From contig NZ_JAKLLN010000001.1 of the NCBI RefSeq assembly GCF_023150065.1, forward strand, positions 1 to 64,000: a stretch of 64,000 nt of DNA. The letters run 5' to 3'. Positions 1,157 through 21,731 of this stretch are shown here, one piece after another. Numbering within the stretch: the first letter of the stretch is position 1; the number at the start of each line of letters is the position of its first letter. A program made the translations under genes and the position numbers. The DNA comes from Zoogloea sp. (GTDB lineage Bacteria; Pseudomonadota; Gammaproteobacteria; Burkholderiales; Rhodocyclaceae). The notes beneath the pieces are model-generated. The model saw nothing but the letters and a program-made list of their open reading frames with translations. It was not told the origin of the DNA and searched no databases.

Positions 1157-4100
1157 TCACATCCCCGAGGCCATCCGGTACCGCTTGGCCACCTCCTGCG
1201 CAAACTCCGGCCCCTCCATCGCCCGGGCCTGCTGTACCGCCTTGGCCGCGGCCGGCACGCCCAGCACCAGGCGCGGCGGCGTGCCGCGCAACAGCGCCTC
1301 GGCGTTGGCCTGGGAGATGGATGACTGCTTGAGCACCTGGCGGATCTGGGCGGGGTTCATCCCGGCTGCCTGGGCGGCCTGCACCAGCCGGCGCATCTCG
1401 GTGAAGGCCTCCGCCTGCCGGCTCTGCGCTACCTCCCGGGCATCCCGGATGTCCTCCGGAGACACCGGATTGACGCTCCGCAGGGTGCGCGTCAGCACCT
1501 GCTTGGCCTCGGTCATCGCATCGTTGAACTCGAAGGAGCGGTAATACAGCGCCGTCTTCGGATCCATCGTCGAAGCCCGCCAGCCCAACAGCGCCGTCAT
1601 CTCGTCGTTGAGGTCGTAGGGCTGGCCGCTGCCCTCCCGGCGTATGCCCTGGGCCGCCAGCGTCAGCCGCTCGATGTTGCCCACGAAGCCCGGCTGCAGG
1701 GCCTTGCGCAGATGGTTGGCGATGGCGCCGGCCTGGTCGAGGGCATCGGCCCCCTCCTGATACACCTTCCCACCGGAGTCCTTCTTGTTGGCCAGCACCT
1801 GGAAGATCGCCGCGGTGGCGATGTCCGCCCCGAAGAAGGGTGTGAGCATGTCCTTGATCGCGCTGGCCGCCGACTTCTCCCAGGGCTGATCCCGCAGCAT
1901 CGCCGTGATCGGCCGCTTCCAGTAGCCGTACGGGTCCAGGAAGCTCATGTCGAAGTAGCGCAGCTGGCCCTTCTCGTCGCGGCCGGCGAAGAGGAAGGTG
2001 GAGTTCTTCTGCCACTCCGGCGCCAGGTCGCGCAGCGCCTCCTCCTCATCGTCATCCACGCCGGAGCCGGCCTTGCTCAGGGCGGCCAGGCCATAGAACA
2101 GGCCCGACACCACCGCCATGCCCACCGCCCGCTTCATCCCCAGCGCCCGCAGCGCCGGGTTGTCGCTCTTCAGGTCGGCGGCGGTCATGCGCAGCATGTT
2201 CGCGCTGGTGCGCACGATCTCCGCCGGGAAGGACACGAAGGTGCCCATCAGCGGAAAGCGGCTCAGCTTCTGGATGCCGGCGCCCACCATCGAGTACGTG
2301 GGGTAGGTGTCGCGGATGCGCTTGGCCGCCTCGCGCTCGGCCTCGGCCACCGGCAGCCCTGCCTTCAGGAGCCCAGCCTTCTCGTTCTCGAAGCCGATGA
2401 TCTTCCAGAAGTCATCCCCGAAGCTGTAAAAGCCCTGGGCCACCTGGTTGATCTGCTTCACGCCGCGCAGGCCCTTGGCGATCGCGCCGTCACTGGCGCC
2501 GAAGGCCCGCATCACCGTGTCCATGCCGCTGTCGGCCTTGGCGTCCTCGATGAAGCGCATCATCTCGCCCGCGTAGGGCGTGTCATAGACCACCCCCAGT
2601 TCCTTCAGGTGGCGCAGGTAGGCAAGGTCATCGCCGGTGGCGTTCTGGCGCACCTGCTCCCGGAAGGCCGCCACGCTCTTCTTCATCTGGGTCAGGTCGA
2701 AGTGACCGTTGGCCAGGGCGAAGAACATGGCCGACTGCCAGTTGCGCATGGCCGTGGTGGGGGACAACACGGTCTTCCCGTACTTCACCAGGCCATTGGC
2801 CCGCACGATGAACCGGTACAGCTCACCCATCTGTTCCTTGCCCAGCGCATCCTTGAAGGACTGGGCCACCTCCGGGAAGGTCCAGAGTCCGTTCAGCGGG
2901 GCATAGACCTCCGAGCCCTGGGCGGCGATCTGCGTGGTGGCCGAGGGTGGCCGGTCCTTGCCCTCGAACAGGAAGGTGCCCATTCCCATCTCGCGCACCC
3001 GATCCAGGAAGCGCTGGTTCCAGATCAGCCGGCCCATCTTCGTGGCGGACTTGGTGAAGTTCAGCCGTGGATCGGCGTATTCCCCGAGGAGCGCCCGGAT
3101 CACCGGCGGCACGTCCTTCCTGCGCATCAGCACGCTCAAGTCCTTGGCGCCCAGCTTGCCCTCGGCGATGAAGCTCTCCATCGAGTCGTAGGCCGTGCCG
3201 TTTTTCAGGATCTCGGCCAGCGCCACCTCCGCCAGGCGCAGCGCCTCGGCCTCGCCGGTCTTGCCGCCCTCCATGTAGCCGTCTTTCAGGTACTGCCGGG
3301 CCGCGTTGAGGGTGGCCGTCGGCACCTTCTGGAACCACTTCGGATCGTCGAAGGCCTGGTACGACCGGTGCACGTAGGCGCCGACGTTGTTCCGGATCTT
3401 CTCGTACAGCCCGATCTCGTTGATCGCCTGCGCCTTGTCGGCATCCCGGCCGCTCTGCTCGGCCTTGGCCTGCAGCGCGTCGATCCTGCCCTGGATGATC
3501 TGCAAGTATTCGCCGGACAGGCTGTCGATGTACTGGCGCATCGCCACCACGGCCGTCTTCGTGGCCTTGGGCAGGCTGCCTGCCACCTTGCCGGCCAGCG
3601 CCTCGGAGAGGGTCCGCTGCTGGGCCTGGGTGAGTTTGTCGAAGGGCGTGCCGAAGTCCTGCTTCACGGCCTGCTCGAAGCCGCCCACGATGTGCCGGAT
3701 GTCGAATTCCACCGCCTGGAACTTGCTGTCCCGGGCGATCTTCTCGGCAAAGACTGAATCGGGCAACAGGCCACCCGGAGCCAGCCAGCGGCGCAACTGG
3801 CCCTTGGCCTTCTGCCACAGGGACTTGTCCTGCTCGCGCAGCCGGGTGTTCTCGGCGGAGAAGGGGTCGTTCGGATCGGGGCGCGGCCGGCCGGCGGCGC
3901 GGGCGGCGGTATCCCGGAGGCGCTCGGCGACCCGCCCCACGCCGTTACCTTCTGGCGATCCTCGAGAGAACGCGGGCGCGGGGCCGGCCTTCCCATCCGT
4001 CACCACCTGCCCGCGCGCCGCCTTGCCCACCCCGGCCATGGCGTAGGCCACCAGGTCGTCGACCGTGATCGCCTTGAGCTCCACGCCATGCGCCAGCGCC

Positions 4101-7100
4101 CATGCCCGGACCGTGGCCACGAAGTCCCGCACCATGTCCGCCACCTTCCGGCCGATGTTGTGCTCAATCCAGGCGAGGATGGGCCCGTCCGCCCGGGAGA
4201 AGCCGCTCTGCCGCCCCTCCTGTGCGGCCATCTCCACGATGTATGCCGTGGCCTCGAACGGATTGCCCGTCTCGCCCACCGTCTCCATCCGCTCCGCCAC
4301 CCGATCCAGGAAGACGCGCAAGGCCGGCGCCTCCTTCGCCCGGCCTTCGATCAGCGCCAGGGCTTTCTGGTCGAGCGCCTGGCGCTGCTGGCCGTGGACC
4401 ATCTCGTGCAGCACCACGGCGGAGGCGGAGTCCTGGGTGAGGTTCGGTCCCACCAGGTAGGTGATCCCGGTTTTACTGTCGTACAGCCCCTTGGTGTGGA
4501 TGCCGTCCCCGGATTCGAAGAGCTGCACGGCGTCATCCAGCTTCCGGCCGGAGTGGTCGGCAAACTCCTGGGCGTTGCCGATCACCACCAGGCCGCCTGG
4601 CTGGCCGAGGGCGCCGCGGTCCAGCATGGTCTTGATGGCGCCGGCCAGCTTCGGGAAGCGCTCGGCGAAGATCGCGGGCAGGGATTCCGCCGTGATGCTG
4701 GGGCGGGGCAGGGCAGGGGCCGCGGACTTCTGGGCGGTTGGGCTGCCGGCGGCTTCCGGGTTTGCTACACTGGGGTTGCTCTGGCCCCGAGCGATGGGGG
4801 CGCCCTGCCCGGACTCTTCTGCAGGCGCGCCAGCGTATGGGGGCTGTTGTCCGGTAGCAGCGGGTGCGGGTTCGCTCCCATCCCAGAGCACCTTCATCCC
4901 CTTGCGCTGCTGTTTCGCCAGATAGTCGCGGCTGGCCGGAAAGGCCGTGTTGATGCGGTAGTAGTCGCCGCCGTCCGCTGGCTCGAGCTGGACGAACATC
5001 ACATCCTGCCGCGTGCCGCTGATCGCCACCAGCATCTGGCGGTTGGTCGCCTGCAGCACCTCGTTGAAGTTCCTCGCCACGAAAGAGACGAACGCCTCCA
5101 CCGAGGTGAAGCCCGCGTTGCGGATCTGGTTGCCGTGGTTCGCCTCGATGTGGGCCAGGCCCCAGCCCGTGCCGTTCTCGTTCTGCACGCCGTGCTGAAG
5201 CCGGATCTTCCCCGCCTGCCGGCGCATCGCCTGCGCCATCTCCGGCGTGATCTCGCCGAAGTCGATGGAGCCATCCGGCGCAGCCACGAACTCGCCGGCC
5301 TGGCCAGCGCTGCGGGAGAACCGCAGGCCACCGGCCGGCGCATCCTGCTCGGCCGCCGTGTCGCCGCCCTCCGCCTCCTGCAGCTTGCGCGCCATCTCCT
5401 GGTCCAGTGCCTCGGCCCGGGCGGTCGATTCCGGCGAGGCCTGCGCCGCACCGCCGGCCTGCTGCCGATCCAGCCAGTCCATGAACGGCGCGCGGCGTTC
5501 GTTCAGGGTCTTCCCCGCCGGGATGCCGGCCGCGTCGTACAGCAGGCGCTCCACCTGGGGCACGCTCGTGCGGAACTTGAAGTTCGGCGCGGCCTCGATG
5601 TCGGCGGCTCGCTCACCGGTGAGGGCCGAGACAATCGCCGTGCGCGCGTCCGCATGCTCCGGGCCGCCCAGCCCATCGGGGGCGCCGACCCCGTCCGTGC
5701 GGTCCATCAGGATCTGCAGGGCCCGGCCTACTGCCGGCGATGCGGATTCGCCACGTTGGCCACCACCTGCCGCCACAGCAGCGGCGCCAGGCTTCTTGTC
5801 GATCGGAGCTGCAATGCGCTGACCAAGCGGCGCAGCAGTGTTGCCGCTCTTTGCCCAGTCCTTGAAGGCATCAAAGCCCATCGGCGTGATGGCGCCGCGC
5901 CGCTCCGCCCCCTTTCCGTCGGAGAAGTGCGCGTCGTACAGGGCCCGGGCCTCCTCAAGTGAGGAAGCCCCCAGGATGGCCTTGTGCTCGTCAAATTTTC
6001 CCGTGCGGTTGTCGAACTGGTCCACCACGAAAACCGGGCTCTGCACCGGATCGGCCTTGGCGATATACACGTCCACCTGATCACCATCCGCGCCCTGCGT
6101 GCGCTTCACATACCCGTAGTGCGCGCCCATGGTCACAGACCACGGCTTCCCGCCCGGATCGATCCCGGAGCGCGTGGAGCCCTCCGGATTCTCGATGGCA
6201 ATGTCCAGGCCGCCGACGCTCACGTGGCCCTTCTTGTAGTTCCCGGCCTTGGCCTGGGCTTCGGTGGGCTGGGCCCGGTCATTCCTGGGCGAGGTCGCAG
6301 CTTCGTGTGCCGCCGCGTCGATGGCCTCCTGTCCGGCGGCCCGGGATGCCATCGCCTCCACCAGCTTGCCCTGCAGCGCCGAATTGATCTTCGCCCAATC
6401 CGCCCGATGCACGTTCTTGGCGATGATCGGCGGCACGCCCTGCAGGCGCCCGGCCAGCGCCGTCCGCTGCCCGGCATCCATGCGGGCCCAGGTCTCCGCG
6501 GGGCTCGCGGCCGCCGGGGTGGCCGGAGCAGCCGCTGCCGCCGCTCGCGCCGCCCGCACCCGCTCGAGGCCCTCCCGCAGGTTCTTCGGCGGAGCCAGCG
6601 GCACCTTCTCGGCAGGCGCCCGACGCTCCCGGATGCCCATCGCGGCCGGATCCAGCTCATTCGGCGCAGAGGGCTCGACCTCCAGGGGCGCCGGCTGCGC
6701 TGCGCGCACGTCCTCGAAGCGCTGGATGGTCCGCAGTTCGTCCTCGGTCGGGGCGCTGTCGCGGTAGCCCTCCCGACGCAGCGTCGCCGCGAAGCGCCCA
6801 GCCGGGTTCGTCGTCTCCGGATCGGCCAGCACCGCGTCGAGTACCGCGCGCCGCCGGGCCTGCGCCTCCCGCTGCATGGATTCCGCCGTGCGCCGATCCG
6901 CTTCGGCCAGGTCGAACTCCCGGCGCTGCCCCTGCCGGTCGGCGATGCCGGCCCGGCGCTGGGCCACGTCCTGGCGCTCCTGGCTCACCAGGTCGGCGAG
7001 GTCGTTCATTGCGCCGAAGGAACCGGAGGGGGCGGCCTGCGGGCTGGGCGTCGGCGTGGTCTTGCTTGCTGCGGGAAGCGACGAAGGAACGATCTCGTCC

Positions 7101-8791
7101 AGGGGCACGTAGCTCACGGCCTCCCGGTCATTGATCGCTCCTCGCACCATCGCGTAACGCCGTCCGTCCGGACCCGGCTGGGACATCACGTCGACCACCT
7201 CGATCGGCAGATCGAAATCCCGATTGCGCCAGATCGCCTGCTGCCCAGAAGCAACGGACGCATCCGGCCCGATGCGCTCGAAGGTCATGCCAGGATCGGC
7301 AGCCAGTCGCGCCTCCTGCGCCGCTCGGACCTGTTCGGCAGACGTAGCGCCGTCGGCCAGCGTGGAAGCAGCGCCAAGCCGAACGTCTTCAGCCGCCTGG
7401 GTCTCGATCGCAATAGCGGCGCCGGCCGACAGGGGGCCGGTTGCCGGGTCGATGCCCATAGCGGCCTTGCGCATGGCAGCGAGTTCTTCGGCAGGCGGCG
7501 GCGTGTAGGGAATCGGTGCTCCGCTCTCGAGATCCACCTTCCGGCTGATCTGCTGTTCGTCCAGCACCGGCGGTGGCATCACGCCTGCGCGCTCTAGGGC
7601 CTGTTCGTCCAGCACGGGTGCGGGTGCAGCAGCAGGGGGCGGAGTCTCGGCGGGTGGAGTTTCGGCAGCCGGGGGCTGCTGCTGATTCGCCGTGGTGGCA
7701 GGTCTCGTGACGGCTTGATAGGCCTTCTGTCCGGCAAAGGTGGCGGTGCTCTGCCCGAGGGAGGAGAGCGCCTCCAGCGCCGCACCCTTGGAGTCCCAAT
7801 CTCCAGTAGCAATGCCCTGACCCAGATATTCGCCCGCATACTCGCCGGCTGGTTCAAGGGCTGCCGTACCGACGTTGCGCGCAATCTTTTGAGTGCCGGA
7901 GGTTGCAGCCTTGTATTCAGCGTCCGCCGCGATCCGAGCCGCAAAGTCCGGGGAGGCTCTGGCCGCTTTCACTGCGGCCCTATCGGCAACATCTACTCCC
8001 ATTCCTGCCAGCGCCCGATCAGTTGCGGCGCGAGCTGGACCGGAGAGCAGCTTGCTGCCTGCTCCCATGGTCAAGGTGTCGATGGCTGCGATGATGCTTC
8101 CCTTGGTCGCCGTCGTGCCGAGCACCGAATCGCCGTTCCTCTCGAGATATGCTTGGACGGCTTGACGATCTTCGGGGTTGATGCCTGCTGTGTTCAGTGC
8201 CCGAAGCACCTGCTCACCGGTTTCCATGGCCGTGTTGCCAGCAGCGCTGCCAGCAAAAGCACCTCCGACAGTGCCTGCCACCGTGCCGACAGGGCCAGCC
8301 GAAGTTCCGGCCGCACCACCAGCGGCGCCCCCCGCTAGCATGCCGGCCACGGGCAAGACCATGTTCGGGATCTGCTCGACAATTCCGCCCCCCATGGCGG
8401 ATAGATTCTTCCCGGTTGCACGAACAGCCGCCGGAATCGATGGAGCTTCGCGCCAGTCCTTCGCAAACTCGCCGGCCACCTCCTTGATGCCACCGGTGAT
8501 GCCGTCGCCGCGCTCCCAGGCCGCCATCAGTTCGTTGCCTTCCTTCGTGCCCGGGTTTTCTCTGCGGTACGCGGCGCCTTCTGCTACGCGCTGAGCTGCG
8601 CCGGCTGCATCTCCGGTGGCAAGGTTGGCAAATGTCTGTGCGGAATTCTTGGCTTGATTCACGCCCCGCATGAAGGGGCCGTCGGATGTGCTCTCCTTGC
8701 CATACTCCGGATCGTGAAACGGGTTGGCCTGGGACGCCTTGCCGGGCTCGAGTCCATAGTTCGGGTCTTTGAACGGGTTGGTCTCGGCCAT
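1157..8791 (-). CDS. Giant phage polyvalent protein (2544 residues), PLxRFG type
   Basis: This is a very large multi-domain phage protein of the 'polyvalent' class, which family knowledge says is packaged and injected with DNA to protect the genome or modify the host. Seen in order: two copies of an NPFxDPxYG motif (residues 5-13 and 23-31); a Gly/Ala-rich hydrophobic stretch (about 140-195) that could form a channel; Pro-rich linkers; an inorganic-pyrophosphatase-like domain (about 840-985, with HYGYVKRTQGADGDQVDVYI and a DEHKAILG segment); a probable barnase/ColE5/RelE-like nuclease module (about 1155-1315, GWGLAHIEANHGNQ); a zinc-peptidase motif HEMVH near 1462 with a possible third ligand in NPFEATAYIVE; and a C-terminal region with KLSRFPLMGTF near 2175. 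The start overlaps the upstream stop as TAATG. The domain names for the nuclease and peptidase are inference. Confidence 0.75.
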   Translation of the reverse strand: MAETNPFKDPNYGLEPGKASQANPFHDPEYGKESTSDGPFMRGVNQAKNSAQTFANLATGDAAGAAQRVAEGAAYRRENPGTKEGNELMAAWERGDGITGGIKEVAGEFAKDWREAPSIPAAVRATGKNLSAMGGGIVEQIPNMVLPVAGMLAGGAAGGAAGTSAGPVGTVAGTVGGAFAGSAAGNTAMETGEQVLRALNTAGINPEDRQAVQAYLERNGDSVLGTTATKGSIIAAIDTLTMGAGSKLLSGPARAATDRALAGMGVDVADRAAVKAARASPDFAARIAADAEYKAATSGTQKIARNVGTAALEPAGEYAGEYLGQGIATGDWDSKGAALEALSSLGQSTATFAGQKAYQAVTRPATTANQQQPPAAETPPAETPPPAAAPAPVLDEQALERAGVMPPPVLDEQQISRKVDLESGAPIPYTPPPAEELAAMRKAAMGIDPATGPLSAGAAIAIETQAAEDVRLGAASTLADGATSAEQVRAAQEARLAADPGMTFERIGPDASVASGQQAIWRNRDFDLPIEVVDVMSQPGPDGRRYAMVRGAINDREAVSYVPLDEIVPSSLPAASKTTPTPSPQAAPSGSFGAMNDLADLVSQERQDVAQRRAGIADRQGQRREFDLAEADRRTAESMQREAQARRRAVLDAVLADPETTNPAGRFAATLRREGYRDSAPTEDELRTIQRFEDVRAAQPAPLEVEPSAPNELDPAAMGIRERRAPAEKVPLAPPKNLREGLERVRAARAAAAAAPATPAAASPAETWARMDAGQRTALAGRLQGVPPIIAKNVHRADWAKINSALQGKLVEAMASRAAGQEAIDAAAHEAATSPRNDRAQPTEAQAKAGNYKKGHVSVGGLDIAIENPEGSTRSGIDPGGKPWSVTMGAHYGYVKRTQGADGDQVDVYIAKADPVQSPVFVVDQFDNRTGKFDEHKAILGASSLEEARALYDAHFSDGKGAERRGAITPMGFDAFKDWAKSGNTAAPLGQRIAAPIDKKPGAAAVAAGGGQRGESASPAVGRALQILMDRTDGVGAPDGLGGPEHADARTAIVSALTGERAADIEAAPNFKFRTSVPQVERLLYDAAGIPAGKTLNERRAPFMDWLDRQQAGGAAQASPESTARAEALDQEMARKLQEAEGGDTAAEQDAPAGGLRFSRSAGQAGEFVAAPDGSIDFGEITPEMAQAMRRQAGKIRLQHGVQNENGTGWGLAHIEANHGNQIRNAGFTSVEAFVSFVARNFNEVLQATNRQMLVAISGTRQDVMFVQLEPADGGDYYRINTAFPASRDYLAKQQRKGMKVLWDGSEPAPAATGQQPPYAGAPAEESGQGAPIARGQSNPSVANPEAAGSPTAQKSAAPALPRPSITAESLPAIFAERFPKLAGAIKTMLDRGALGQPGGLVVIGNAQEFADHSGRKLDDAVQLFESGDGIHTKGLYDSKTGITYLVGPNLTQDSASAVVLHEMVHGQQRQALDQKALALIEGRAKEAPALRVFLDRVAERMETVGETGNPFEATAYIVEMAAQEGRQSGFSRADGPILAWIEHNIGRKVADMVRDFVATVRAWALAHGVELKAITVDDLVAYAMAGVGKAARGQVVTDGKAGPAPAFSRGSPEGNGVGRVAERLRDTAARAAGRPRPDPNDPFSAENTRLREQDKSLWQKAKGQLRRWLAPGGLLPDSVFAEKIARDSKFQAVEFDIRHIVGGFEQAVKQDFGTPFDKLTQAQQRTLSEALAGKVAGSLPKATKTAVVAMRQYIDSLSGEYLQIIQGRIDALQAKAEQSGRDADKAQAINEIGLYEKIRNNVGAYVHRSYQAFDDPKWFQKVPTATLNAARQYLKDGYMEGGKTGEAEALRLAEVALAEILKNGTAYDSMESFIAEGKLGAKDLSVLMRRKDVPPVIRALLGEYADPRLNFTKSATKMGRLIWNQRFLDRVREMGMGTFLFEGKDRPPSATTQIAAQGSEVYAPLNGLWTFPEVAQSFKDALGKEQMGELYRFIVRANGLVKYGKTVLSPTTAMRNWQSAMFFALANGHFDLTQMKKSVAAFREQVRQNATGDDLAYLRHLKELGVVYDTPYAGEMMRFIEDAKADSGMDTVMRAFGASDGAIAKGLRGVKQINQVAQGFYSFGDDFWKIIGFENEKAGLLKAGLPVAEAEREAAKRIRDTYPTYSMVGAGIQKLSRFPLMGTFVSFPAEIVRTSANMLRMTAADLKSDNPALRALGMKRAVGMAVVSGLFYGLAALSKAGSGVDDDEEEALRDLAPEWQKNSTFLFAGRDEKGQLRYFDMSFLDPYGYWKRPITAMLRDQPWEKSAASAIKDMLTPFFGADIATAAIFQVLANKKDSGGKVYQEGADALDQAGAIANHLRKALQPGFVGNIERLTLAAQGIRREGSGQPYDLNDEMTALLGWRASTMDPKTALYYRSFEFNDAMTEAKQVLTRTLRSVNPVSPEDIRDAREVAQSRQAEAFTEMRRLVQAAQAAGMNPAQIRQVLKQSSISQANAEALLRGTPPRLVLGVPAAAKAVQQARAMEGPEFAQEVAKRYRMASGM

Positions 8792-10830
8792 TACTTCACA
8801 CCCACCAGGTAGCGTGCTGCGGCACCTTGTCCATAGACTGCATCGAACATGGCGGCCTGGTTCGGGCTCTTCTTCAGCGCGTCGATATGGTTCTGGGGAG
8901 GCGTCGAAGATCCTGCGGAAGCTGCCTTCGGCGGAAACACATACTCGCCGGTCCGCTGATTGACCGGGATCGTGCTCAGGATGGGATTCCCCAAGCCGTC
9001 CGTCCCGGTTTCAACTTTCGCCATCGAGAATGCGGGCCGCTCTTCCTTGCCCTGCACGGCCAACAGCTGCCGCGCCAGCTCGTTGCGCCGGGTCGGGTCG
9101 GTCTCGGCGGCAAGTTGCCGCTGCAGATCCGCCTGCCGCTGCGCCTTCTGCAGTTCCAAGACCTGCGCCTGGTTGGAGAGGCCGGCGGTGACGGATTTTG
9201 CGGCGGAGTCTTGCCGCCGCAGGGCCATCTCTTGCTGGTCGAGGCCCTGTTTTGCCGCCGCATCCTGGCGCCCGCTCAGGTGGTTCAGTGCCGCAATCCG
9301 GGAGGCGGCCTTGTCCGAGAAGAGCAGATCCCCCACAGCCTCATCGGGCGTACGCTTCCGGAAACCGATGCCGCCGCCGGCATTGAAGTTGATCTGGTCC
9401 TGCAGCTCGCCCATGCCGGCGCGGATCTGGTTTTCCCGCTGCAGGATGCCCATCACATCGTTGCCGCCCACGCCGGACGCGCGTTGCTCCCCCACGGACC
9501 CAGGCCCGAAGCCCAGGCCCGGAGCAGCCGGTGCCGCCGGCAAGGAGGCATCGTTCCGCAGAGATGCCGGCTGGAAGCCGCCCACCGGGTTGCCCTTCAT
9601 CTCGGCCACCGCCTGGCCAGGATCGATGTTCGTGAAGAGCGGCGACTTGCCGAGCTGGTTGATGCGCTGCACGCCGTTGGTGTTCGCCACGGGCGCCACG
9701 GTGTAGGGCACCGGGCCGGAGTTGGGGGGCGTGGTGCCCGTGGTGGTGCCCGGCTGATCGACCTCGTTTGCCGCGGCGCCTGCAGCAGAGGATCCGGGAA
9801 CGACGGGGGAGGAGGCTGCGGCCGGACTTTTCGGGGCGGCGGGGATGCCGGGTGGTACCGCAGGCTTCTCGGGTTCGGCGATCAGCCCTTCGCGGTTCTG
9901 GTCTCGGATGGCATTCGTGCGCGACTCGAAGGGCGATGGAACCATGGCGCTCAGCGTCTCGCCGTAGGCCGTGCCCAGCGAGTTGAGGGGCCCCTTGATC
10001 GGGGAGGTCGCGGGTGCTGTGGGCCGGGTGGTTGCAGGCCCACCGATCTGGCCGGAGGAGGTGCGGGCAGGATCCAACGCCGGGAGATTCGATACCGGGT
10101 TGTTCCCGGTGGACGGACTCTGCAACCTCGCGCGGTCATCCTCCACCACGCCGCCATTGACGAAGTAGAGCGCATCCGTGGACCGCTGCTCCTGCACCGG
10201 GGTGTGGGTGGCGTTCTTGAGCTGCTCCAGCACCCGGGCGCCAATCGCCTGGAGCTGCTCCGGAGATACTTGGAATTCCCCGTTCGAGAGATTCACGGGT
10301 ACGGCGTTGGCGCTTGCACCCTGTCCGTTCTCGCGCTGTGCCTTGCTCTTGAAGCCGATGCCCGGTTCAGGCTTGCTCTCGGCCTGTGCAGCCTGGCGCT
10401 GGGATCGAGGCTGGAAGCCAAAGCCCTGGCCGGCTGCGGGCGCCGGAACGTTCCGCATGTAATCGGGCTGGAAGCCCAGGCCAAGGCCGGGCGCCTTCGG
10501 CCGGTCCGCCGGGTTCATGCCCGAGCGGAACCCCAGGGCGGCCAGGTTCTGCTCGCCGATCTGCGCCACGGAGTCCGCCGGCACGATGAAGGAGCCCTGT
10601 TCAACCGCCGTCTTGATCGAGTCTGAGGTGCCGGTACCGGGGCCGCGGATCGGGCCGGACCCGGTTGCCTGTGCGAGAAGGGCGGCGGCGCGACTGCCGT
10701 GGCCGAAGCCCAAGCCCGAGGCTTCGGGGTCAGGAGGAGACGACTGCTTGTTGCCGCGCACCTCGCCGCCGTCGGCGAGTTTCTGGGGGTGGGCCTGGGG
10801 CCGGCTGGAACGTTTCTGGAATCCGAACAT
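8791..10830 (-). CDS. Large prophage protein, probable virion/injection-associated
   Basis: This 679-residue, low-complexity, Gly/Pro/Ser-rich protein is coupled to the giant polyvalent gene by a TAATG overlap, so the two are probably made together. The start at 10830 has a GGGAG site 7 bases upstream. Two related modules are visible: GPGTGTSDSIKTAVEQGSFI followed by VPADSVAQIG, and NLSNGEFQVSPEQLQAIG, a type seen in phage structural proteins. A short G-x-G-F motif recurs at least five times (GLGFGHGS, GLGFQPD, GFGFQPRS, GIGFKSKA, GLGFGPGS), as if marking linkers. The central part is Pro/Thr-rich and the C-terminal part has a Gln/Arg-rich helix. The structural role is inferred from neighbours and motif style; no enzymatic motif is seen. 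Confidence 0.6.
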   Translation of the reverse strand: MFGFQKRSSRPQAHPQKLADGGEVRGNKQSSPPDPEASGLGFGHGSRAAALLAQATGSGPIRGPGTGTSDSIKTAVEQGSFIVPADSVAQIGEQNLAALGFRSGMNPADRPKAPGLGLGFQPDYMRNVPAPAAGQGFGFQPRSQRQAAQAESKPEPGIGFKSKAQRENGQGASANAVPVNLSNGEFQVSPEQLQAIGARVLEQLKNATHTPVQEQRSTDALYFVNGGVVEDDRARLQSPSTGNNPVSNLPALDPARTSSGQIGGPATTRPTAPATSPIKGPLNSLGTAYGETLSAMVPSPFESRTNAIRDQNREGLIAEPEKPAVPPGIPAAPKSPAAASSPVVPGSSAAGAAANEVDQPGTTTGTTPPNSGPVPYTVAPVANTNGVQRINQLGKSPLFTNIDPGQAVAEMKGNPVGGFQPASLRNDASLPAAPAAPGLGFGPGSVGEQRASGVGGNDVMGILQRENQIRAGMGELQDQINFNAGGGIGFRKRTPDEAVGDLLFSDKAASRIAALNHLSGRQDAAAKQGLDQQEMALRRQDSAAKSVTAGLSNQAQVLELQKAQRQADLQRQLAAETDPTRRNELARQLLAVQGKEERPAFSMAKVETGTDGLGNPILSTIPVNQRTGEYVFPPKAASAGSSTPPQNHIDALKKSPNQAAMFDAVYGQGAAARYLVGVK

Positions 10831-10987: not shown

Positions 10988-11122
10988 GGAAACCTGCCTG
11001 GAAACCTCTGGCTTGGAAACCAGGTATTCGCTGGTAACCGACTTGGTAACCACTTCCTGGTAACCCGGGGTTTCCGTGGATACCGCGTTGGATACCAAGG
11101 CTTTGGATACCCGAGGATGCTA
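10988..11122. repeat. Three tandem 45-bp units, each with one hexamer repeated three times
   Basis: Three units of 45 bp begin at 10988, 11033 and 11078. Each holds one heptamer three times: GGAAACC (10988, 11000, 11015), GGTAACC (11033, 11045, 11059) and GGATACC (11078, 11090, 11105). Spacing is 12 then 14-15 bases in every unit. The heptamer is constant inside a unit but differs between units, while the bases between are only loosely conserved. The array lies upstream of the leftward gene that starts at 10830. A solitary unit of the same layout lies at 14361. Function unknown; operator array, replication site or coding remnant are all possible. Confidence 0.8.
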
Positions 11123-12120: not shown

Positions 12121-13512
12121 TCAGGATGAGAAATGCTCGACCAAATTGATTGCAGTGTCGATGCCGCGAAGCCCGCCAATGGGCGGAAGCTGGAGATTGC
12201 CATCGAACCCACTTCTCAGTATGTTGAGGGCGTCCATTCTATCGACGCGTCCCTGCCCAATCTGGCGGGCGCCGTCGAGTTCCGAGAGAAATGCGGAACT
12301 CATCCCGCTATAGCTGAGTGCCCGCAAATACCATTCGAAGTACGTCCCTCCATGTGTCTCCAGGTAGTTAAGAAAGCGCTTGGACTTGCTCAAGTCTATG
12401 AGCACGTCGTCGATGGTCTTGCTACCGTGTAGGAGACCCTGGTAGAGCTCTGGTTGCTTGATGCGGAGCACGATGGCCATGAACAGGTTCATGAATGACC
12501 ATTGTCGCGCCCTGGGTGATGCGATCTTGGTCAAGGCGTAGTGCGTAAAGCACTTTTCCTGATCTCGCGGTGAGCAGGAGAATGCATCGAACAGGCTGGA
12601 TACAAGGTTCTGGGTTGAGAAGGGGCCTGTGAAACCACTTTGTTTGGAGTGCGCTTCAATCGCTTCAGCAAGACCAAATTTCCTGAAAAGCTCGCCAACG
12701 AACGTGGTGCCATTTCCCTTTGGAAGGTTGAACTCCAGGTCAAAGAACCTGCGGAGATAGCCGCCGACATCCATGTCTGCCCCGTACATGGACTTGATGC
12801 TGTGTCCGAGCTGCTCTCGATCCAGTGCAAGCACAAAGACCACACCTGGCACGCTGAAGAAGTGCTTGATGACTTCCAGCACGCGAACGGCGAAAGGGGG
12901 CCGGCAGCGATCGAGCTCGTCGACGAAGATGACCAGTGGCTTACCGCTGACGCCGATCTCCTCTGCGAGCTCCGTGAGCGCATCCTTGAAACCGGCGATG
13001 GAGGCCTTTGCTTCTGCGTAGGCCTCGATCTGAGCTTCGGCAAGCTTGCCCGCTTCGTCGACGAGAAGGTCTTTCAGGGCGTCGTTATCGATATCGACCA
13101 TCCCGGCCGTTGCTGCCTTGATCGCGAAAGGGAGCGCACCACGCACGAGCTTTGAACCAAGGCGCTTGAATACCGCGATCTTCTCCGCTGCAGGATCGGG
13201 GCACCCCTTGGCAGCGAGTTCTTCAGCTTGGCTTTGCAAATCGCCCAAGAGCGCCACCATGGCGTCATCCACGAAGTCGCTTTCCCATGCGTTGAAGAGC
13301 ATGGTGGTGAAGTCGCCTTCAAGCTGGGTTCGCCACATCTCAATGAAGGTGGACTTGCCGGATCCCCATGTGCCATTTATGCAGAGCACGAGGCCATCCG
13401 GTGCTGAGTTGAGCACGTTTGTAAGTACTTCAGCGCATGCCTTGCGGCCAAGCCGATCTTCGGCGTAAGGAGCTTCTTTTGTGATGGTGATCGGGCTGGG
13501 TTTGAAGTTCAT
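12121..13512 (-). CDS. KAP-family P-loop NTPase, probable phage-defence or exclusion gene
   Basis: This 463-residue protein belongs to the KAP (Kidins220/ARMS-PifA) NTPase family. Walker A is GTWGSGKST (about 48-55) and Walker B with the KAP-typical extension is VIFVDELDRCRPP (about 200). The region between carries a weakly hydrophobic stretch (about 115-130) where many KAP proteins insert membrane segments. The family includes F-plasmid PifA, which blocks T7, so an exclusion role is inferred. The gene stands alone, with gene-poor DNA on both sides, and has visibly lower GC than the phage genes around it. The ATG at 13512 has a GAGG upstream; a TTG 10 codons earlier is possible. The trigger and target are unknown. 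Confidence 0.75.
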   Translation of the reverse strand: MNFKPSPITITKEAPYAEDRLGRKACAEVLTNVLNSAPDGLVLCINGTWGSGKSTFIEMWRTQLEGDFTTMLFNAWESDFVDDAMVALLGDLQSQAEELAAKGCPDPAAEKIAVFKRLGSKLVRGALPFAIKAATAGMVDIDNDALKDLLVDEAGKLAEAQIEAYAEAKASIAGFKDALTELAEEIGVSGKPLVIFVDELDRCRPPFAVRVLEVIKHFFSVPGVVFVLALDREQLGHSIKSMYGADMDVGGYLRRFFDLEFNLPKGNGTTFVGELFRKFGLAEAIEAHSKQSGFTGPFSTQNLVSSLFDAFSCSPRDQEKCFTHYALTKIASPRARQWSFMNLFMAIVLRIKQPELYQGLLHGSKTIDDVLIDLSKSKRFLNYLETHGGTYFEWYLRALSYSGMSSAFLSELDGARQIGQGRVDRMDALNILRSGFDGNLQLPPIGGLRGIDTAINLVEHFSS

Positions 13513-13731
13513 GGGCAGGGCCTCGCATGCAGGATGTCTCAATTATGCAATGTGAGCTCACGCTGCGCGGGGTGTGGCATCAAGGTGGGGCATGGGTCCT
13601 GAAGGTCCAAGGCTCGCCAAGCTACGCCTAGCGCGGAGGCTATCGGCCAGCCAGGTAGTCCGAATTGGGGGCGCTGACTGTCAGGCGGAGGAGGAGCACA
13701 AACCCCGGCATGGGGCCAGGGGGAAGGTAAC

Positions 13732-13757: not shown

Positions 13758-14255
13758 TTACCGATTCCCCCGAGCCCTTCCAGCCGCCTCGAGCTTCAGC
13801 CCCCACAAGGTGTGCCGCAACTGGGCATGCGCCCGTTCGTAGGCATCAGAGGCGGCTTCGAATTCCCGTTCCAGTGATGCGGACTCGGCTTCGAGCACTT
13901 GCTGCGCATCCTTCGCGGCGTCGATCTGCCAGGTCAAGCGCTGGCAGCGTGCCCGGCCGTCGGTCGCTGCGGTGAATTCCAGATCCCCCAGCGCAAGATC
14001 CACTGCAGCCAGACCACGGAAGCCGGACCGGACTTCCTCTTCCGCGGCCTGCAGTGTCTCGAGGCGACTAGCTACTGAATCCGCTCGCAAGGAGTGCAGC
14101 TCCCAGGACACCTGGGATTGGTAGGCGGCCTCGGAGGCCTGGTCCATGACGGCCTGCAGCGCGGCAAGGGCCGGGTGATCCAGGAAGCCCTCGTCGGGCA
14201 GTTGGTGCGCCGCTTCGATGACCTCGGCCGGCAGCTCGTTTGCGATCTGATGCAT
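13758..14255 (-). CDS. Coiled-coil prophage protein, unknown function
   Basis: This 165-residue, acidic, mostly helical protein starts at 14255, where an AGAAGGA lies about 10 bases upstream. The frame stays open for another 50 codons upstream, but that extension passes through a hairpin and the solitary 45-bp repeat unit, so I take the downstream ATG. From about residue 60 it has long heptad-like runs of Ala, Glu and Leu (LETLQAAEEEVRSGF; QQVLEAESASLEREFEAASD), suggesting a coiled coil. No motif points to a function. It lies between the replication genes and the KAP NTPase. Confidence 0.55.
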   Translation of the reverse strand: MHQIANELPAEVIEAAHQLPDEGFLDHPALAALQAVMDQASEAAYQSQVSWELHSLRADSVASRLETLQAAEEEVRSGFRGLAAVDLALGDLEFTAATDGRARCQRLTWQIDAAKDAQQVLEAESASLEREFEAASDAYERAHAQLRHTLWGLKLEAAGRARGNR

Positions 14256-14280
14256 GTTCCGTTGTCCTTCTCTTGCGTGT

Positions 14281-14328
14281 TGCAGCAGGGTGCAAGGGGG
14301 TAACGTTTCGCGACCCCCTTGCACTGCA
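14281..14328. promoter_or_regulatory. Strong hairpin upstream of the coiled-coil gene
   Basis: TGCAAGGGGGT (14291-14301) pairs perfectly with ACCCCCTTGCA (14313-14323), and TGCAG/CTGCA outside it extends the stem across a bulge. It lies 26 bases upstream of the leftward gene that starts at 14255. It may be a terminator for upstream genes without a T-run, or an operator or leader structure. Confidence 0.45.
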
Positions 14329-14360
14329 GCTTCATCACCTCGGGTGGTGCGGGATTCCCT

Positions 14361-14405
14361 GCGTACCGGGCTGCGTACCACCGTCTTGCGTACTTGATCC
14401 GCCCC
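14361..14405. repeat. Solitary 45-bp-type unit with a hexamer repeated three times
   Basis: GCGTAC occurs at 14361, 14373 and 14388, so the spacing is 12 then 15 bases, exactly as in the tandem units at 10988-11122. Read on the minus strand the unit also matches those units in the bases that follow the third hexamer (GAATCCC against GAAACCC). It lies 106 bases upstream of the gene that starts at 14255. Confidence 0.65.
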
Positions 14406-14465
14406 CATTGGGTACCGATTCAGGAGCCCAATCGATCATGAAAAAGGCAAACTTTTGTCAGCCCC

Positions 14466-14780
14466 TCATGGGCTTCGCTTTGCCTTCGGCAGAAGCCCGT
14501 TCATGGCAGCCCTCGCCTTGCCCGCATCGGATGTGGGGCCGGTGCTGAGCCCTCCATGGAACTTGCATCGGCCGTTCTCCCAGAGGTCCGTCCGCTTGCA
14601 CGGTGTTCCGGCCCGCGTCTTCGCACCGCAGGTGAGCCCCCGCAGCTCATCGGGGTATTGAGGGAATGTCGGTGGTGGGTGGCCGTAGCCCTGGGCCTTC
14701 CAGGCGGCGTGGATCTCCGCCCGGGCCTGGATGTACGCCTTCAGCAGCTTGCGCCGCTCGCGGTCTGGATCCTCGGTCAT
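14466..14780 (-). CDS. HGGxSTGP-motif small phage protein
   Basis: This 104-residue protein has a Cys-containing centre (TCGAKTRAGTPCKR) and the KFHGGLSTGP motif, a combination seen in many small phage and plasmid proteins whose function is not known. The two Cys of the centre, a third in GRCKFHGG and the His could bind a metal. The N-terminal half is a charged helix. The start overlaps the upstream stop as ATGA (14777-14780), so it is translated with the preceding DNA-binding gene. No catalytic motif is visible. Confidence 0.65.
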   Translation of the reverse strand: MTEDPDRERRKLLKAYIQARAEIHAAWKAQGYGHPPPTFPQYPDELRGLTCGAKTRAGTPCKRTDLWENGRCKFHGGLSTGPTSDAGKARAAMNGLLPKAKRSP

Positions 14781-15703
14781 GCTCCACCCACCAGATTCAT
14801 CAGGATGGCATCCGCTTCTCGCGCGCCCATCCGGTTTTCCTCCCCCATGAACCGCAGCACCGCGACGGATTCCACCTTGGTGCGTGGACGGATCTCGGCC
14901 AGCATCCCGAAGACGAACCAATCCCGGGCGGTGGCCTCGGGGGGCGGGTCACCTCCGTGGCGGCACACCGCCTCACGCAGGCGGTACAGGTCCGACCAGA
15001 AGCGCAGTTCGTGAAGGCAGTCGGCCAGCGTCTGGGGCATCAGCTCGGGGCGGTCCTTGAACCGGGTGGCCACCTGGTTGCAGTCGAAGTCATGCAGGGC
15101 GCCGCTTCGCTCCAGCCCGGCCAGGGTTTCGGTGCAGAACAGCTCCGCGGGCGTCGGATCGAACAGCGCATCCCCGAAGCGGGCCCGTGCTTCGTTCTGT
15201 CTGCAGTTGCGCTCGATGGCCTTCTTCGCCAGCCCCTTCAGGTCACCGAAACCCACGGTTGCAAGGCCGGCAAACGGGTTGCCTGGATTCGTTGCCTGAA
15301 GGAAGGCGGCGTATCGATCCTCCAGCGTCTTCAGCGGTGTCTTGATACGGGTGGCCGCCTCCATTGCCTTGTCGATCAGCGCGGCGTCGCCGGTGTTGAT
15401 CACCGCCTGCAGCCACAGCACGGCATCCAACTCCGCATCGCCGGTGACGCGCTCCTTGGGCGGCAGTTCGGGCACGGCCGGCAGGGTCTGGCTGCTCTCG
15501 CGGATCGGCGGCAGGCTGAACAATGCGCGGTGCGCCGGGTTGTCGCGGAAGACGCCGGCCCTGGAGCAGATCGCCTTCACCGTGCCAAGTGGCAGGCCCG
15601 CCAGCATGGCCACCTCCCTGAAGGAATGCCGGCGGCGCAGCTCGAGCACCTGCTGCCGGACGTCCGCTGAAACCCCGGGTTGCGTGGATGTCCCGTGGAT
15701 CAT
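14777..15703 (-). CDS. Phage protein with N-terminal helix-turn-helix, unknown role
   Basis: This 308-residue protein carries near its N-terminus (about residues 14-50) a resolvase-type helix-turn-helix pattern (VLELRRRHSFREVAMLAGLP then LGTVKAICSRAG). The rest is helical and acidic with scattered Cys, and I recognise no domain. It overlaps the genes on both sides by 4 bases (ATGA), placing it in one translationally coupled block with the winged-helix protein and the HGGxSTGP protein. The position next to replication genes suggests a role in replication or early gene control. That is inference only. Confidence 0.55.
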   Translation of the reverse strand: MIHGTSTQPGVSADVRQQVLELRRRHSFREVAMLAGLPLGTVKAICSRAGVFRDNPAHRALFSLPPIRESSQTLPAVPELPPKERVTGDAELDAVLWLQAVINTGDAALIDKAMEAATRIKTPLKTLEDRYAAFLQATNPGNPFAGLATVGFGDLKGLAKKAIERNCRQNEARARFGDALFDPTPAELFCTETLAGLERSGALHDFDCNQVATRFKDRPELMPQTLADCLHELRFWSDLYRLREAVCRHGGDPPPEATARDWFVFGMLAEIRPRTKVESVAVLRFMGEENRMGAREADAILMNLVGGA

Positions 15704-18105: not shown

Positions 18106-18479
18106 CAGAGGGCTTCCTCAAGTTCGAATGATCTCCAGTCGTCGGCCTGTCCGCGGTCCCAGAACATCCCGACGTGCTCGGGCAGCCAGGCGAGGACATA
18201 CACGTTCAGGCTCCTGGCGAATTCCTTCAGGCGCTTGCAGAGGCGCAGCAGCTGGTCGCTGTAGCGGTCGGCCTGGACGCAGACCGAGAGGCCCACCAGT
18301 GCGCGCAGATCAAGCCGCGCTACCGGCGCCGTCTCGGCAATGACCACTTCCACGCTCACACCGGACCAGTGCCACCAGGGGGTTTGCTCGTAGTTGCCGA
18401 ACAGCACCCACACATCCCCTGGGGGGAGTTGCCCAGCGAGGCGCATCTCGACAAGCGGCTTCAGTGCGTTCAGCAGCAT
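18105..18479 (-). CDS. Small prophage protein between initiator and helicases
   Basis: This 124-residue protein is coupled by TGATG overlaps to the initiator gene upstream and the ATPase gene downstream. It has mixed alpha/beta character, aromatic-rich (WVLFGNYEQTPWWHWSG), with an acidic C-terminus. I recognise no domain. Its position between a replication initiator and two helicase-type ATPases makes a helicase-loading or accessory replication function plausible, but nothing in the sequence shows it. An upstream in-frame extension exists, but it lies inside the initiator gene and has no ribosome-binding site. Confidence 0.55.
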   Translation of the reverse strand: MLLNALKPLVEMRLAGQLPPGDVWVLFGNYEQTPWWHWSGVSVEVVIAETAPVARLDLRALVGLSVCVQADRYSDQLLRLCKRLKEFARSLNVYVLAWLPEHVGMFWDRGQADDWRSFELEEAL

Positions 18480-19342
18480 CAGATGCACCCTCGGAACGGA
18501 TCCGGTGTGCTCGGCGCGGGGCTGCGTGGGATGGCGGCGTTGTTGCGCTCGGCTTCCCGGCGGACCCAGTTGCGCCAGGTCGCCAACCAGTCGGCCTTGA
18601 CTGCGTCCTTGCCGACTTTCGCTCGCCAGTAGTCGCCGAACGTCTCCCCAACCTTCCGGACTTGATCTCCTGACCATCGGGGGACTTCAGCCAGAGCCCA
18701 TTCACCCCAGGCTCTTGGAAGTTGCCAATCGGCAGGCAGTCGCGTTCCCTTCGTTGGGGGATGCTTCTCACCGCGGGGGGCATCGGCCGTCCTGCTGCTG
18801 ACAGGGACCACGTCCACTACTCTGGTCTGTTCACTGGTCTGTTCTTTGCCCCTAGCCTGTTGGGCTACGGTAGAAGTAGCCGAATCGGCTACCGTTGCCT
18901 GTTGGGCTACCGTAGCCGATTCGGCTACACGCATGCCCCTAGCCTGATCGGCTACCGTTGCCTGATCGGCTACGGTAGCCCGTTGGGCAACGGTTGCCTG
19001 TTGGGCTACCGTTGCCGAATAGGCTAGGGTTTCGGGCACATGGATGGTGTAGCGGTTGGCCTTGGAGAAGCCGCCTTTCCCCACTTTGGTGAGCCAGCCA
19101 AGATGCTCGAGCGCGGTAGTGGCAGAGCTCACGTTGGTGATGTGCACACCCGACCGCTTCGAAATCTCGTCGCGCGAAGGGAAGCACTGGCGATCAGGCC
19201 CGCAGAAGGACAGCAACGAGCCCAACACCCGAAGCTGTTCAAGCGTCAGCCGTTTGTCGGCCCACACCTCGATCGGCACAATGCTGAAAATGTCGCCCAC
19301 CGTGTCACCGCCCCCACGGTCGGCGCCGTGCATCGGTTGCAT
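18479..19342 (-). CDS. Phage replication initiator-like protein with internal iterons
   Basis: This 287-residue protein has three parts. Residues about 18-100 are a helix-turn-helix domain (LTLEQLRVLGSLLSF, then PSRDEISKRSGVHITNVSSA). Residues about 108-165 are a tandem repeat of six-residue blocks of the form ATVAQQ/ATVADQ. The C-terminal part has the WADWLATWRNWVRR-like segment (here KADWLATWRNWVRRE) common in phage replication proteins of the lambda O/DnaT type. The repeat is encoded by 18-bp palindromic units that look like origin iterons, as in lambda O. The start is uncertain: ATG 19342 overlaps the upstream gene by 38 bases; a GTG at 19300 just after that gene's stop has a GGGGGCGG upstream. 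Confidence 0.7.
   Translation of the reverse strand: MQPMHGADRGGGDTVGDIFSIVPIEVWADKRLTLEQLRVLGSLLSFCGPDRQCFPSRDEISKRSGVHITNVSSATTALEHLGWLTKVGKGGFSKANRYTIHVPETLAYSATVAQQATVAQRATVADQATVADQARGMRVAESATVAQQATVADSATSTVAQQARGKEQTSEQTRVVDVVPVSSRTADAPRGEKHPPTKGTRLPADWQLPRAWGEWALAEVPRWSGDQVRKVGETFGDYWRAKVGKDAVKADWLATWRNWVRREAERNNAAIPRSPAPSTPDPFRGCI
18863..19016. repeat. Palindromic 18-bp iterons inside the initiator gene; candidate phage origin
   Basis: A 13-bp dyad of the form GGCWAC-N-GTWGCC (complete or with one mismatch) occurs at 18887, 18905, 18950, 18968, 18986 and 19004, with degenerate copies at 18863 and 18923. Within runs the spacing is exactly 18 bases. Perfect dyads are GGCTACCGTAGCC (18905), GGCTACGGTAGCC (18968) and GGCAACGGTTGCC (18986). 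Lambda O likewise carries its origin iterons inside the initiator gene. The role as origin is inference. Confidence 0.65.
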
Positions 19343-20323: not shown

Positions 20324-20398
20324 ATACGACGTCAGGCCGCTAGGCGTACTACGTTTGGCGGCCTGACGTACTACGTTTAGCAGCTAGGCGTACTACGT
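20324..20398. repeat. 22-bp direct-repeat array (core GTACTACGT)
   Basis: GTACTACGT occurs at 20346, 20368 and 20390, exactly 22 bases apart. A degenerate copy (ATACGACGT, 7 of 9 matching) lies another 22 bases earlier at 20324. Flanking bases are also partly conserved (CTAGGC or CCTGAC before, TTTGGCGG or TTTAGCAG after). The array fills the gap between the unknown 313-residue gene and the AlpA-like gene. Spacing of about two helical turns suggests cooperative binding of one protein. Operator or replication/partition iterons are both possible. Confidence 0.75.
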
Positions 20399-20405
20399 AT
20401 GGCCG

Positions 20406-21347
20406 CTAACCGGTGCTCCTATTCGCCTCTCGGAACCATTCAGTAATGGTCCTCAAGGCGTTGTCCTCTTTGAGGCTAAACCCCAGTTTCTTGCCGTGGG
20501 CCATGATCTCCTCCTTGAGTGCTCTGGCGGCCACAGGGGGGGAGATCCACTCCTTTTCCCGATAGAGCTGAGTAGCCCATTCTCGAAGCGCCAGTTTGGG
20601 AGCATGGGCAGCCATGGCGCCCTTCTTTCCGTTGGAGGAAAGAACTTGGGATAGATGAGATGCCCCTCGTTCTTCGACTTCCTTTCGAAGTCGGCGGCGC
20701 TCTTCGGAAAGCTCCGCGACTTTGGCTTTATGGGCCGCGAGCATCGACTCTTGGCCGATCATCCGAACCTTCAGCCAGTTGTAAGTGCGAACTTGTTCCG
20801 CAGTGCAGATTGCTTCCGTCGCATTCAAGACTGCTTTCGCCACGGCTTCAAGGCAGTACCCGTGTTGCTGGTCTCCGTGCGACACGGAGGCTCTGTGCAG
20901 TCGAATAGCTTCATCAATGTGGACAAGGCCAAGGGCAGCGAATAGCTCATACTGACGTTCGGCTTGGAATTCTGGGTCGGAGTAGAGGTCCGCACAGGCC
21001 ATCAGGGCTTCAAGCTCGCTAGTGTTGGTGGGGTTTGGGCAATCTATATGGTCCAGGCGAATCAACGCGCGTGCCTCGGGATCATCAAGGCCGTTCCGCG
21101 CGAGCCAATATTGGAACTCATCGTGAAAATAGCAGTTGATGGCTGCGTCCACGGCTTCGACGAGGATCTCGATCTGAATAGGTTCGCGATACTTCAAGAG
21201 CGCGTGGGCGCGGTTTGCTACAAGTATTAGCCCCAGAATGTCGTCATTGGGGGAAATGGTCGTGTGGGGGTTGGACGGATCGAAGAAATGGAAGGTCGAT
21301 TTCAGCGCGATGTAGCGCCCGAAGTATTCATACGATAGCGGTGTCAT
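20406..21347 (-). CDS. Unknown 313-residue protein with low GC
   Basis: I do not recognise this protein. It is largely helical. The N-terminal 190 residues contain several Cys and His without an obvious metal motif (LDHIDCPNP; SHGDQQHGYCLEAV). A charged helix (AELSEERRRLRKEVEE, about 205-220) may be a coiled coil, and the C-terminal 80 residues (GKKGAMAAHAPKLALREWAT and on) look like a DNA-binding or accessory domain. No membrane segment or signal peptide is seen. Its GC is lower than that of its neighbours, suggesting separate acquisition as a cargo gene. The ATG at 21347 is preferred to a TTG eight codons upstream, though the ribosome-binding site is weak. Confidence 0.6.
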   Translation of the reverse strand: MTPLSYEYFGRYIALKSTFHFFDPSNPHTTISPNDDILGLILVANRAHALLKYREPIQIEILVEAVDAAINCYFHDEFQYWLARNGLDDPEARALIRLDHIDCPNPTNTSELEALMACADLYSDPEFQAERQYELFAALGLVHIDEAIRLHRASVSHGDQQHGYCLEAVAKAVLNATEAICTAEQVRTYNWLKVRMIGQESMLAAHKAKVAELSEERRRLRKEVEERGASHLSQVLSSNGKKGAMAAHAPKLALREWATQLYREKEWISPPVAARALKEEIMAHGKKLGFSLKEDNALRTITEWFREANRSTG

Positions 21348-21416
21348 CGCGGGGACTCGGTCAAGTTGCAATCCGGGCCTCTGGCGCCCGGCCCTTCTCT
21401 TGCTGGGTCAGGCGGC

Positions 21417-21731
21417 TCAGACGGCCGAATGCTCTTTCAGCCATTCACGCAGCGCGTCATTCATCCGGGTTTGCCACCCAGCTCCGCCAGCCCGGAAGGC
21501 GGCGAGAACATCGCGATCAATCCGAATGGCGACCTGTTCCTTAGAGCCAGTTCCAGCCGGCCGGCCGCGGCCTCGGCGGGCGGCTTCAACACCGGCGCGC
21601 AGTTCATCCTCAGTGGCCGGCCGGTCGTCTTCATCCTTACCGTCCCAGACATAATCCTGATCGTCCGTCAGGGCGCGTACAGCGGACAGCACCTGATCAC
21701 GGTTCATCGCATTCGTTTTCGAGCCAGGCAT
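21417..21731 (-). CDS. brnA: BrnA-type antitoxin
   Basis: This 104-residue protein matches BrnA antitoxins. The C-terminal ribbon-helix-helix part (KEQVAIRIDRDVLAAFRAGG, then WQTRMNDALREWLKEH) binds DNA, and the N-terminal part binds and neutralises BrnT. The start at 21731 is chosen for a GAGG 7 bases upstream; an ATG at 21707 is possible, and longer versions are not supported. It overlaps the toxin gene by 35 bases, so both are on one leftward mRNA. By family, BrnA or the complex represses the brnT promoter. Confidence 0.85.
   Translation of the reverse strand: MPGSKTNAMNRDQVLSAVRALTDDQDYVWDGKDEDDRPATEDELRAGVEAARRGRGRPAGTGSKEQVAIRIDRDVLAAFRAGGAGWQTRMNDALREWLKEHSAV

Follow-up and report, generated by a model that had tools for sequence, protein, structure and literature searches.

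Word-matched triple repeats in a Zoogloea mobile element as candidate packaging sites for several phage classes

Why should a short word occur three times in each unit of a tandem array, and change as a set from one unit to the next? This question is raised by the genome of Zoogloea sp. (NCBI RefSeq assembly GCF_023150065.1), of which we analyzed the first 64,000 nucleotides of contig NZ_JAKLLN010000001.1, here called the window. The array lies within a mobile element, and an earlier note, made from the letters alone, had proposed that the three copies within a unit must match each other. We consider it probable that the units are sites for the small terminase subunits (TerS) of different phage classes, and that the array most likely lets a satellite or satellite-like prophage be packed by several helpers.

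The triple words in the window and in small-terminase genes

On the plus strand of the window, the repeated heptamers are GGAAACC (at 10988, 11000, and 11015), GGTAACC (11033, 11045, and 11059), and GGATACC (11078, 11090, and 11105). Their spacings within the units are 12+15, 12+14, and 12+15 bp, and successive unit starts are 45 bp apart, exactly as the earlier note had placed them. On the minus strand, the three units extend from 11111 to 10988, and each contains one 6-bp word three times. A fourth unit, which the note had overlooked, lies 3.3 kb from the array. The four units are listed below.

11078 to 11111, minus strand: unit with the word GTATCC three times, spacing 15+12 on that strand
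11033 to 11065, minus strand: unit with the word GTTACC three times, spacing 14+12
10988 to 11021, minus strand: unit with the word GTTTCC three times, spacing 15+12
14361 to 14393, minus strand: fourth unit, with the word GTACGC three times, spacing 15+12, at the 5' end of the open frame 13758–14408

Exact heptamer triples at 12 and 14–15 bp occurred four times in the window and never in 60 first-order Markov simulations, and the looser pattern GGTNNNCA-N7-GGTNNNCA-N4-GGTNNNC gave two matches against none in 100 shuffles.

When 1 kb around the array was used as a blastn query, three Pseudomonas phage records were obtained (8P, USP_18, and USP_25), in each of which the match lies within a gene annotated as the terminase small subunit (terS). 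The GTATCC unit is 86% identical over 43 nt to these genes, and the phage 8P gene translates at the matched site as KADALVSKAAVSKPVSTET. The regular V-S/T readings of the minus strand, from which the earlier note had considered a coding origin possible, are present in the translation, and such an origin is indeed possible, since the same triple lies inside the terS genes of phages. Relatives of these genes (phrog_1206) were drawn from viral contigs and phage records, giving 260 loci, all with a TerS match, of which 64 were removed as duplicates. In the remaining 196 distinct genes, the aligned sites carry an identical 6-mer three times in 178, in two of the three positions in 11, and in none in 7. 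The coding relatives thus match within the unit as well, which supports the proposal that the three copies must agree; coding relatives without such a match, which the note had named as the outcome that would speak against it, were not what we found. The spacing is 5 and 4 codons (15+12 bp) in 195 of the 196 genes and 4+4 codons in the other one. The majority words were GTACGC (102 genes), GTATCC (45), GTTTCC (9), GTTAAC (8), GTTGCC (8), GTTCGC (6), GTGCGC (6), GTTAGT (2), GTTACC (2), and GTGACC (1), and 7 genes were mixed.

The encoded dipeptide shifts with the word (VR, VS, VN, VA, or VT), serine being written as TCC or AGT and valine as GTA or GTT. Where the dipeptide was equal at the three sites, the codons were also equal in 178 of 183 genes, against a mean of 123 and a maximum of 133 in 2,000 shuffles, and in the VS class in 51 of 53 genes (mean 28.5 and maximum 35); the codons were shuffled within each dipeptide class, and kinship among the genes was not controlled. 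The codons therefore match beyond what the dipeptide demands, which indicates that the DNA, and not only the protein, is kept.

The word also goes with the presumed recognition helix of TerS. This comparison covered 187 terS genes, after seven without a majority word, one with the 4+4 spacing, and one with an unreadable helix were left out. These genes contain 21 helix cores and 9 words, and no core occurs with more than one majority word. Twelve of the cores are represented by two or more genes; the other 9 are single genes, which are unable to test the rule. SEGAIR and its kin go with GTACGC; [TS]HGA[IV]N with GTATCC; SHTAIN and SHAAIN with GTTTCC; SHV[TNS]I[SN] with GTTAAC; SHTAIQ and [ST]HQAIS with GTTGCC; SDTAIR with GTTCGC; AESGIR with GTGCGC; SDA[AG]II with GTTAGT; and SHVAIN and SHPAIT with GTTACC. 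The same held by eye in 36 more terS loci from the pattern scans, where, for example, SHVAI[GAQSN] and SHAAIS accompany GTTACC. A tree built from the C-terminal part of TerS alone requires at least 35 word changes for 10 words, and shuffled labels require at least 73. The same pairs of core and word recur in proteins that are merely 26–37% identical in the C-terminal part, and two loci that are 97% identical there (L339 and L083) nevertheless differ in both, with GTACGC and SEGAIR in one and GTTGCC and SHQAIS in the other. Because helix and word differ together in TerS pairs that are up to 97% identical in the C-terminal part, the 6-bp word is probably the recognition site of TerS. In the phages the triple lies inside terS, whereas the window array is not beside a terS.

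Clusters of different words and the elements that carry them

Clusters with differing words outside terS were found in Zoogloea, Simplicispira (L217), Paraburkholderia (L266/L316), Aquitalea (L270/L317), Leclercia (L212/L318), and a Pseudomonas metagenome-assembled genome (MAG; L222/L320). One Zoogloea cluster (L314/L198) reads GTACGC, GTTACC, GTTCGC, GTATCC, GTTTCC, GTTGCC, GTAACA, and GTATCC, and another genome of the genus (G012) holds two array-bearing elements (L087 and L088), with the GTACGC unit of the window also found near both clusters. The clusters came from a family-wide pattern search and from scans of viral and genome contigs, one of which gave at least 118 stretches, 80 of them made into loci. 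Seventeen clusters were chosen by hand, partly for their differing words; L176 was left out as a near copy of L191, and related Zoogloea elements, as well as the related L318 and L191, were counted apart. These 17 clusters contain 50 exact units, distributed over 15 clusters, with as many as 8 exact units next to each other, and 42 of the 50 carry a word that is also seen in the terS set. Words recurred within a cluster only once, whereas shuffling gave 7.9 repeats on average, and none of 5,000 shuffles gave a number as low. Within a cluster all units share one strand, except in three clusters that have a palindromic or near-palindromic word, which is then counted on the opposite strand as well. 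In four loci (L317, L318, L322, and L191), units with GTTAAC or GTAACC are spaced 13+13 rather than 15+12; GTAACC could represent GTTACC on the opposite strand.

A check that involved no choice of clusters used 126 pattern-scan loci, 14 of which had at least two exact units. In 10 of these 14 all the words differed, one (L198) had a single repeat among eight units, and three, from other phyla, had a single word. These same-word tandem units, in L235, L253, and L268 (Polyangia, an actinobacterial MAG, and Streptomyces), argue against the words being always different. Two fresh scans yielded 17 loci: 14 with a unit inside terS, among which L494 additionally has a GTTTCT triple elsewhere, and three, on two contigs, with no terS match and two to four units, all of different words. 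The array pattern was present in 2 of 399 genomes across the order, one of them the window's own. The triple pattern alone was present in 67 of 296 genomes of the family, and a backward control pattern also matches often, so most of these matches are due to chance. The neighborhood of the Leclercia GTTCGC unit matches a stretch of about 170 bp in 154 of 5,426 E. coli genomes, at about 79% identity and covering 18% of the query. In one of them (L324, about 9001–9171) the middle copy is GTTTGC, so that the unit is not exact; this locus has nothing else of the Leclercia array and no annotated gene.

The element of the long Zoogloea cluster (L314) occupies about 13 kb between host-like genes, which were named by eye. 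It contains an integrase, small regulators, an O-like initiator, DnaB, the array, a phrog_11341 gene that also matches tape-measure proteins weakly, and an HTH_17 protein. The 10 scanned proteins included no terminase, portal, or capsid, further small or overlapping frames being outside the scan. With an integrase and its own replication genes and, on those 10 proteins, no complete virion set, this element is satellite-like. Primase- or helicase-type genes were found in L128, L317, L127, L322, and L316, and an integrase in L128, L317, and L127 (L128 and L317 were partly scanned). Near the array, a tape-measure gene is present in Leclercia (L318), Herbaspirillum (L321, with one exact unit), and L497, and a neck protein in the first two; the rest of the virion gene set was not among what was seen in these three.

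The contig starts at base 1 of the window, and the remainder of the window element lies beyond the sequence seen. Its main genes are as follows.

1157 to 8791, minus strand: 2544-aa protein matching virion-structural and DarB-like antirestriction families of PHROG, with an InPase domain from Pfam
8791 to 10830, minus strand: phrog_11341 gene directly downstream of the array, from a PHROG match (frame open to 10986, predicted start at 10830)
12121 to 13542, minus strand: KAP-family P-loop NTPase, from a domain match
14777 to 15703, minus strand: phrog_6204 protein, from a PHROG match, with a relative in array-bearing contig L497 (769–1701)
16325 to 17182, minus strand: DnaB-like helicase, from domain and PHROG matches
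18479 to 19342, minus strand: O-like replication initiation protein with HTH_36 and internal ATVA repeats
22122 to 23471, minus strand: tyrosine integrase (Pfam Phage_integrase, 1.7e-15) at the element end, adjoining host-like genes

Over 31% of its length, the phrog_11341 protein resembles a late gene of phage 8P near 24.4–24.9 kb (tblastn, 42% identity), and no relatives of the locus of this gene were found in viral contigs. The phrog_6204 protein, which is common to two array-bearing elements, is a candidate packaging adaptor. Within the O-like gene, 18-bp tandem repeats (18885–19016) encode the ATVA repeats and resemble iterons inside an initiator gene; they are possibly the origin of the element. 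A gene for a BrnA-type antitoxin lies near the integrase (21417–21803), and a 22-bp tandem repeat of 3.4 copies (20335–20408) lies beside the open frame 20406–21371. A tRNA search of window positions 1–30000 gave no genes.

At a threshold of E 0.001, none of 23 genomes of the genus had a match to phrog_1206 terS. No convincing terS was found in any of 15 bearer genomes or in two virus records, where two weak matches (E 0.005 and 0.009) lay in long unrelated frames; as a positive control, all four known carriers were found with E of 1e-53 or better. A TerS protein query likewise found none of three Zoogloea genomes and all three known carriers, and the large terminase subunit (TerL) of phage 8P had no match in six bearer genomes in a search run without a positive control. 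The earlier note had suggested that DNA-binding proteins of the prophage read the units. That a phage DNA-binding protein may do so is consistent with our results; proteins of the element itself are not likely readers, because the window's genome yielded no phrog_1206 terS. The overall reading in the note was thus partly supported. It had not foreseen that the units are very probably read by the small terminases of other phages, with the word set by the recognition helix, nor that multi-word clusters recur in other elements.

Possible functions and origins of the arrays

In the mechanism that we propose, each unit would be the site for the TerS of one phage specificity class, its 6-bp word being repeated three times and read by the recognition helix. 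In ordinary phages of the group, the one unit within terS would mark the phage's own DNA for packaging. The window array would gather four classes (GTACGC, GTATCC, GTTACC, and GTTTCC) in a mobile element that has no terS in the sequence seen, and several helper phages would recognize and pack this element through the units of the matching class. We infer the binding of TerS to the word, the packaging of the element, and the use of several helpers from sequence.

Several observations weigh against this interpretation. Helix and word are about 90 nt apart in terS, so the joint exchange of one segment could yield part of their association without contact, and the recurrence of the pairs at 26–37% C-terminal identity does not remove this objection. 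The assignment of a helix-turn-helix (HTH) to TerS comes from Pfam matches that are weak (in 8 of 15 members, with a best E of 0.0031), beside which we take the presumed recognition helix to be the DNA-reading one from the general HTH pattern. A PDB sequence search with the TerS profile gave three matches (E 0.099 to 0.99), none of them a terminase. Eight of the 50 exact units have words absent from the terS set (GTAACA, GTAACC, GTAGCC, and GTAAAC), and two clusters (L126 and L128) consist of imperfect units alone. The best terS linker match carries the same word for just 8 of 29 array units, so capture from a phage with the same word is not shown for most units. Because several arrays adjoin tape-measure or virion-protein genes, the bearers are not all minimal satellites, and because the contig end cuts the window element, its lack of structural genes is not established.

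The principal competing explanation, which we regard as unlikely, is that the units are decoys, which would protect the host or the element by titrating the TerS of invading phages, with no packaging of the element. Sites of several classes are indeed collected, and the targets would be phages arriving from outside, since the bearer genomes have no convincing terS of the family. However, titration should favor many copies of a site, whereas a word rarely has more than one unit in a cluster (a single repeat among 50 units), and decoys are disfavored because there is one unit per class. Furthermore, the clusters, where seen, are in elements with integrase and replication genes, which need a packing route.

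It is less probable still that the units are dead terS fragments, functionless scraps of old recombination. The linkers of the array units do resemble those of terS (mean identity 0.50 over 29 units, against 0.30 for shuffled linkers), and a terS remnant follows the Leclercia unit. Against this, the words are identical within units while the linkers diverge, even at out-of-frame spacings (14+12 and 13+13), up to 8 exact units are adjacent, word repeats are rare, and clusters are present in elements of several genera. A third explanation, that the units are sites for a protein of the element itself, such as the phrog_6204 protein acting as an Rpp-like adaptor, appears very improbable. The phrog_6204 gene is present in two array-bearing elements, and Rpp redirects TerS in enteric islands according to the part of the source available to us (PMC9026076), but a single element protein would not need many words, and in 42 of 50 units the word belongs to a phage TerS class. 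Finally, ordinary coding repeats of a repetitive protein can practically be dismissed: open frames span parts of some clusters, but unit distances break the frame within clusters (e.g., 46, 109, 40, and 70 bp), window units are spaced both 14+12 and 15+12, and the match is at the codon level.

The GTTGCC units of L318 (Leclercia) and L191 have linkers that are 93–96% identical to those of a terS with the same word (L078), and therefore capture from terS occurs. Change of the word in place is also possible. An array that is merely a mutated terS copy was considered and dropped, several different words standing side by side. With confidence only a little better than even, we suggest that satellites maintain an expanding library of packaging sites, one for each TerS class and partly taken from the terS of phages they have met, which would give them a heritable helper range and would allow helpers and satellites to be matched from sequence alone.

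Comparison with known packaging sites and satellites

The closest parallel is the cosB of lambda-type phages, where sites R1–R3 are read by TerS and lambda, 21, and N15 have different specificities, according to the portion of the source available (PMC4669245). Here as there, a short TerS site occurs three times, and its sequence differs among phages with the recognition helix. In cosB proper, R2 is inverted relative to R3 and R1, an IHF site lies between R3 and R2, and cosN is adjacent; by contrast, the words described here are direct repeats 12–15 bp apart, those within terS being 15 and 12 bp apart with no inverted R2. That portion of the source does not describe clusters outside terS that combine different classes. 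In P22, the packaging site is also within terS, as a 22-bp pac in the TerS gene (PMC9611059, in part); as given there it is a single asymmetric sequence, unlike the triple word with many classes and a rule that relates helix to word. How TerS reads DNA was called unanswered in a 2022 review (PMC9611059) and a matter of major debate in a 2024 paper (PMC11331095), as far as the available parts of both texts go. A large natural set of helices and words with repeated switches gives direct predictions on this reading, which are testable from sequence.

Among satellites, the enteric islands have a lambda-like cosN plus Rpp and no R repeats (PMC9026076), phage-inducible chromosomal minimalist islands (PICMI) have no identified cos or pac (PMC10803314), and StCI-301 carries two putative cos sites that are nearly identical and of one type (PMC13376191). 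In the available parts of these sources, each therefore has a site of one type or none, and no set of different classes; nor did we find an array of packaging sites of different classes in the open-licence literature. A 2024 review notes, in the part available, that shared cos or pac motifs would reveal which phage moves which satellite, but that these are often unknown (PMC11389934). Should the arrays prove to be packaging sites, each satellite's helper classes could be read from its own array, and the question becomes testable from sequence. In gene content, the array elements resemble Staphylococcus aureus pathogenicity islands (SaPI), phage-inducible chromosomal islands (PICI), and PICMI, with an integrase, an AlpA-like or HTH regulator, a primase or helicase, and no full virion set, and the dependence of those satellites on packaging by a helper is what we propose for the array elements.
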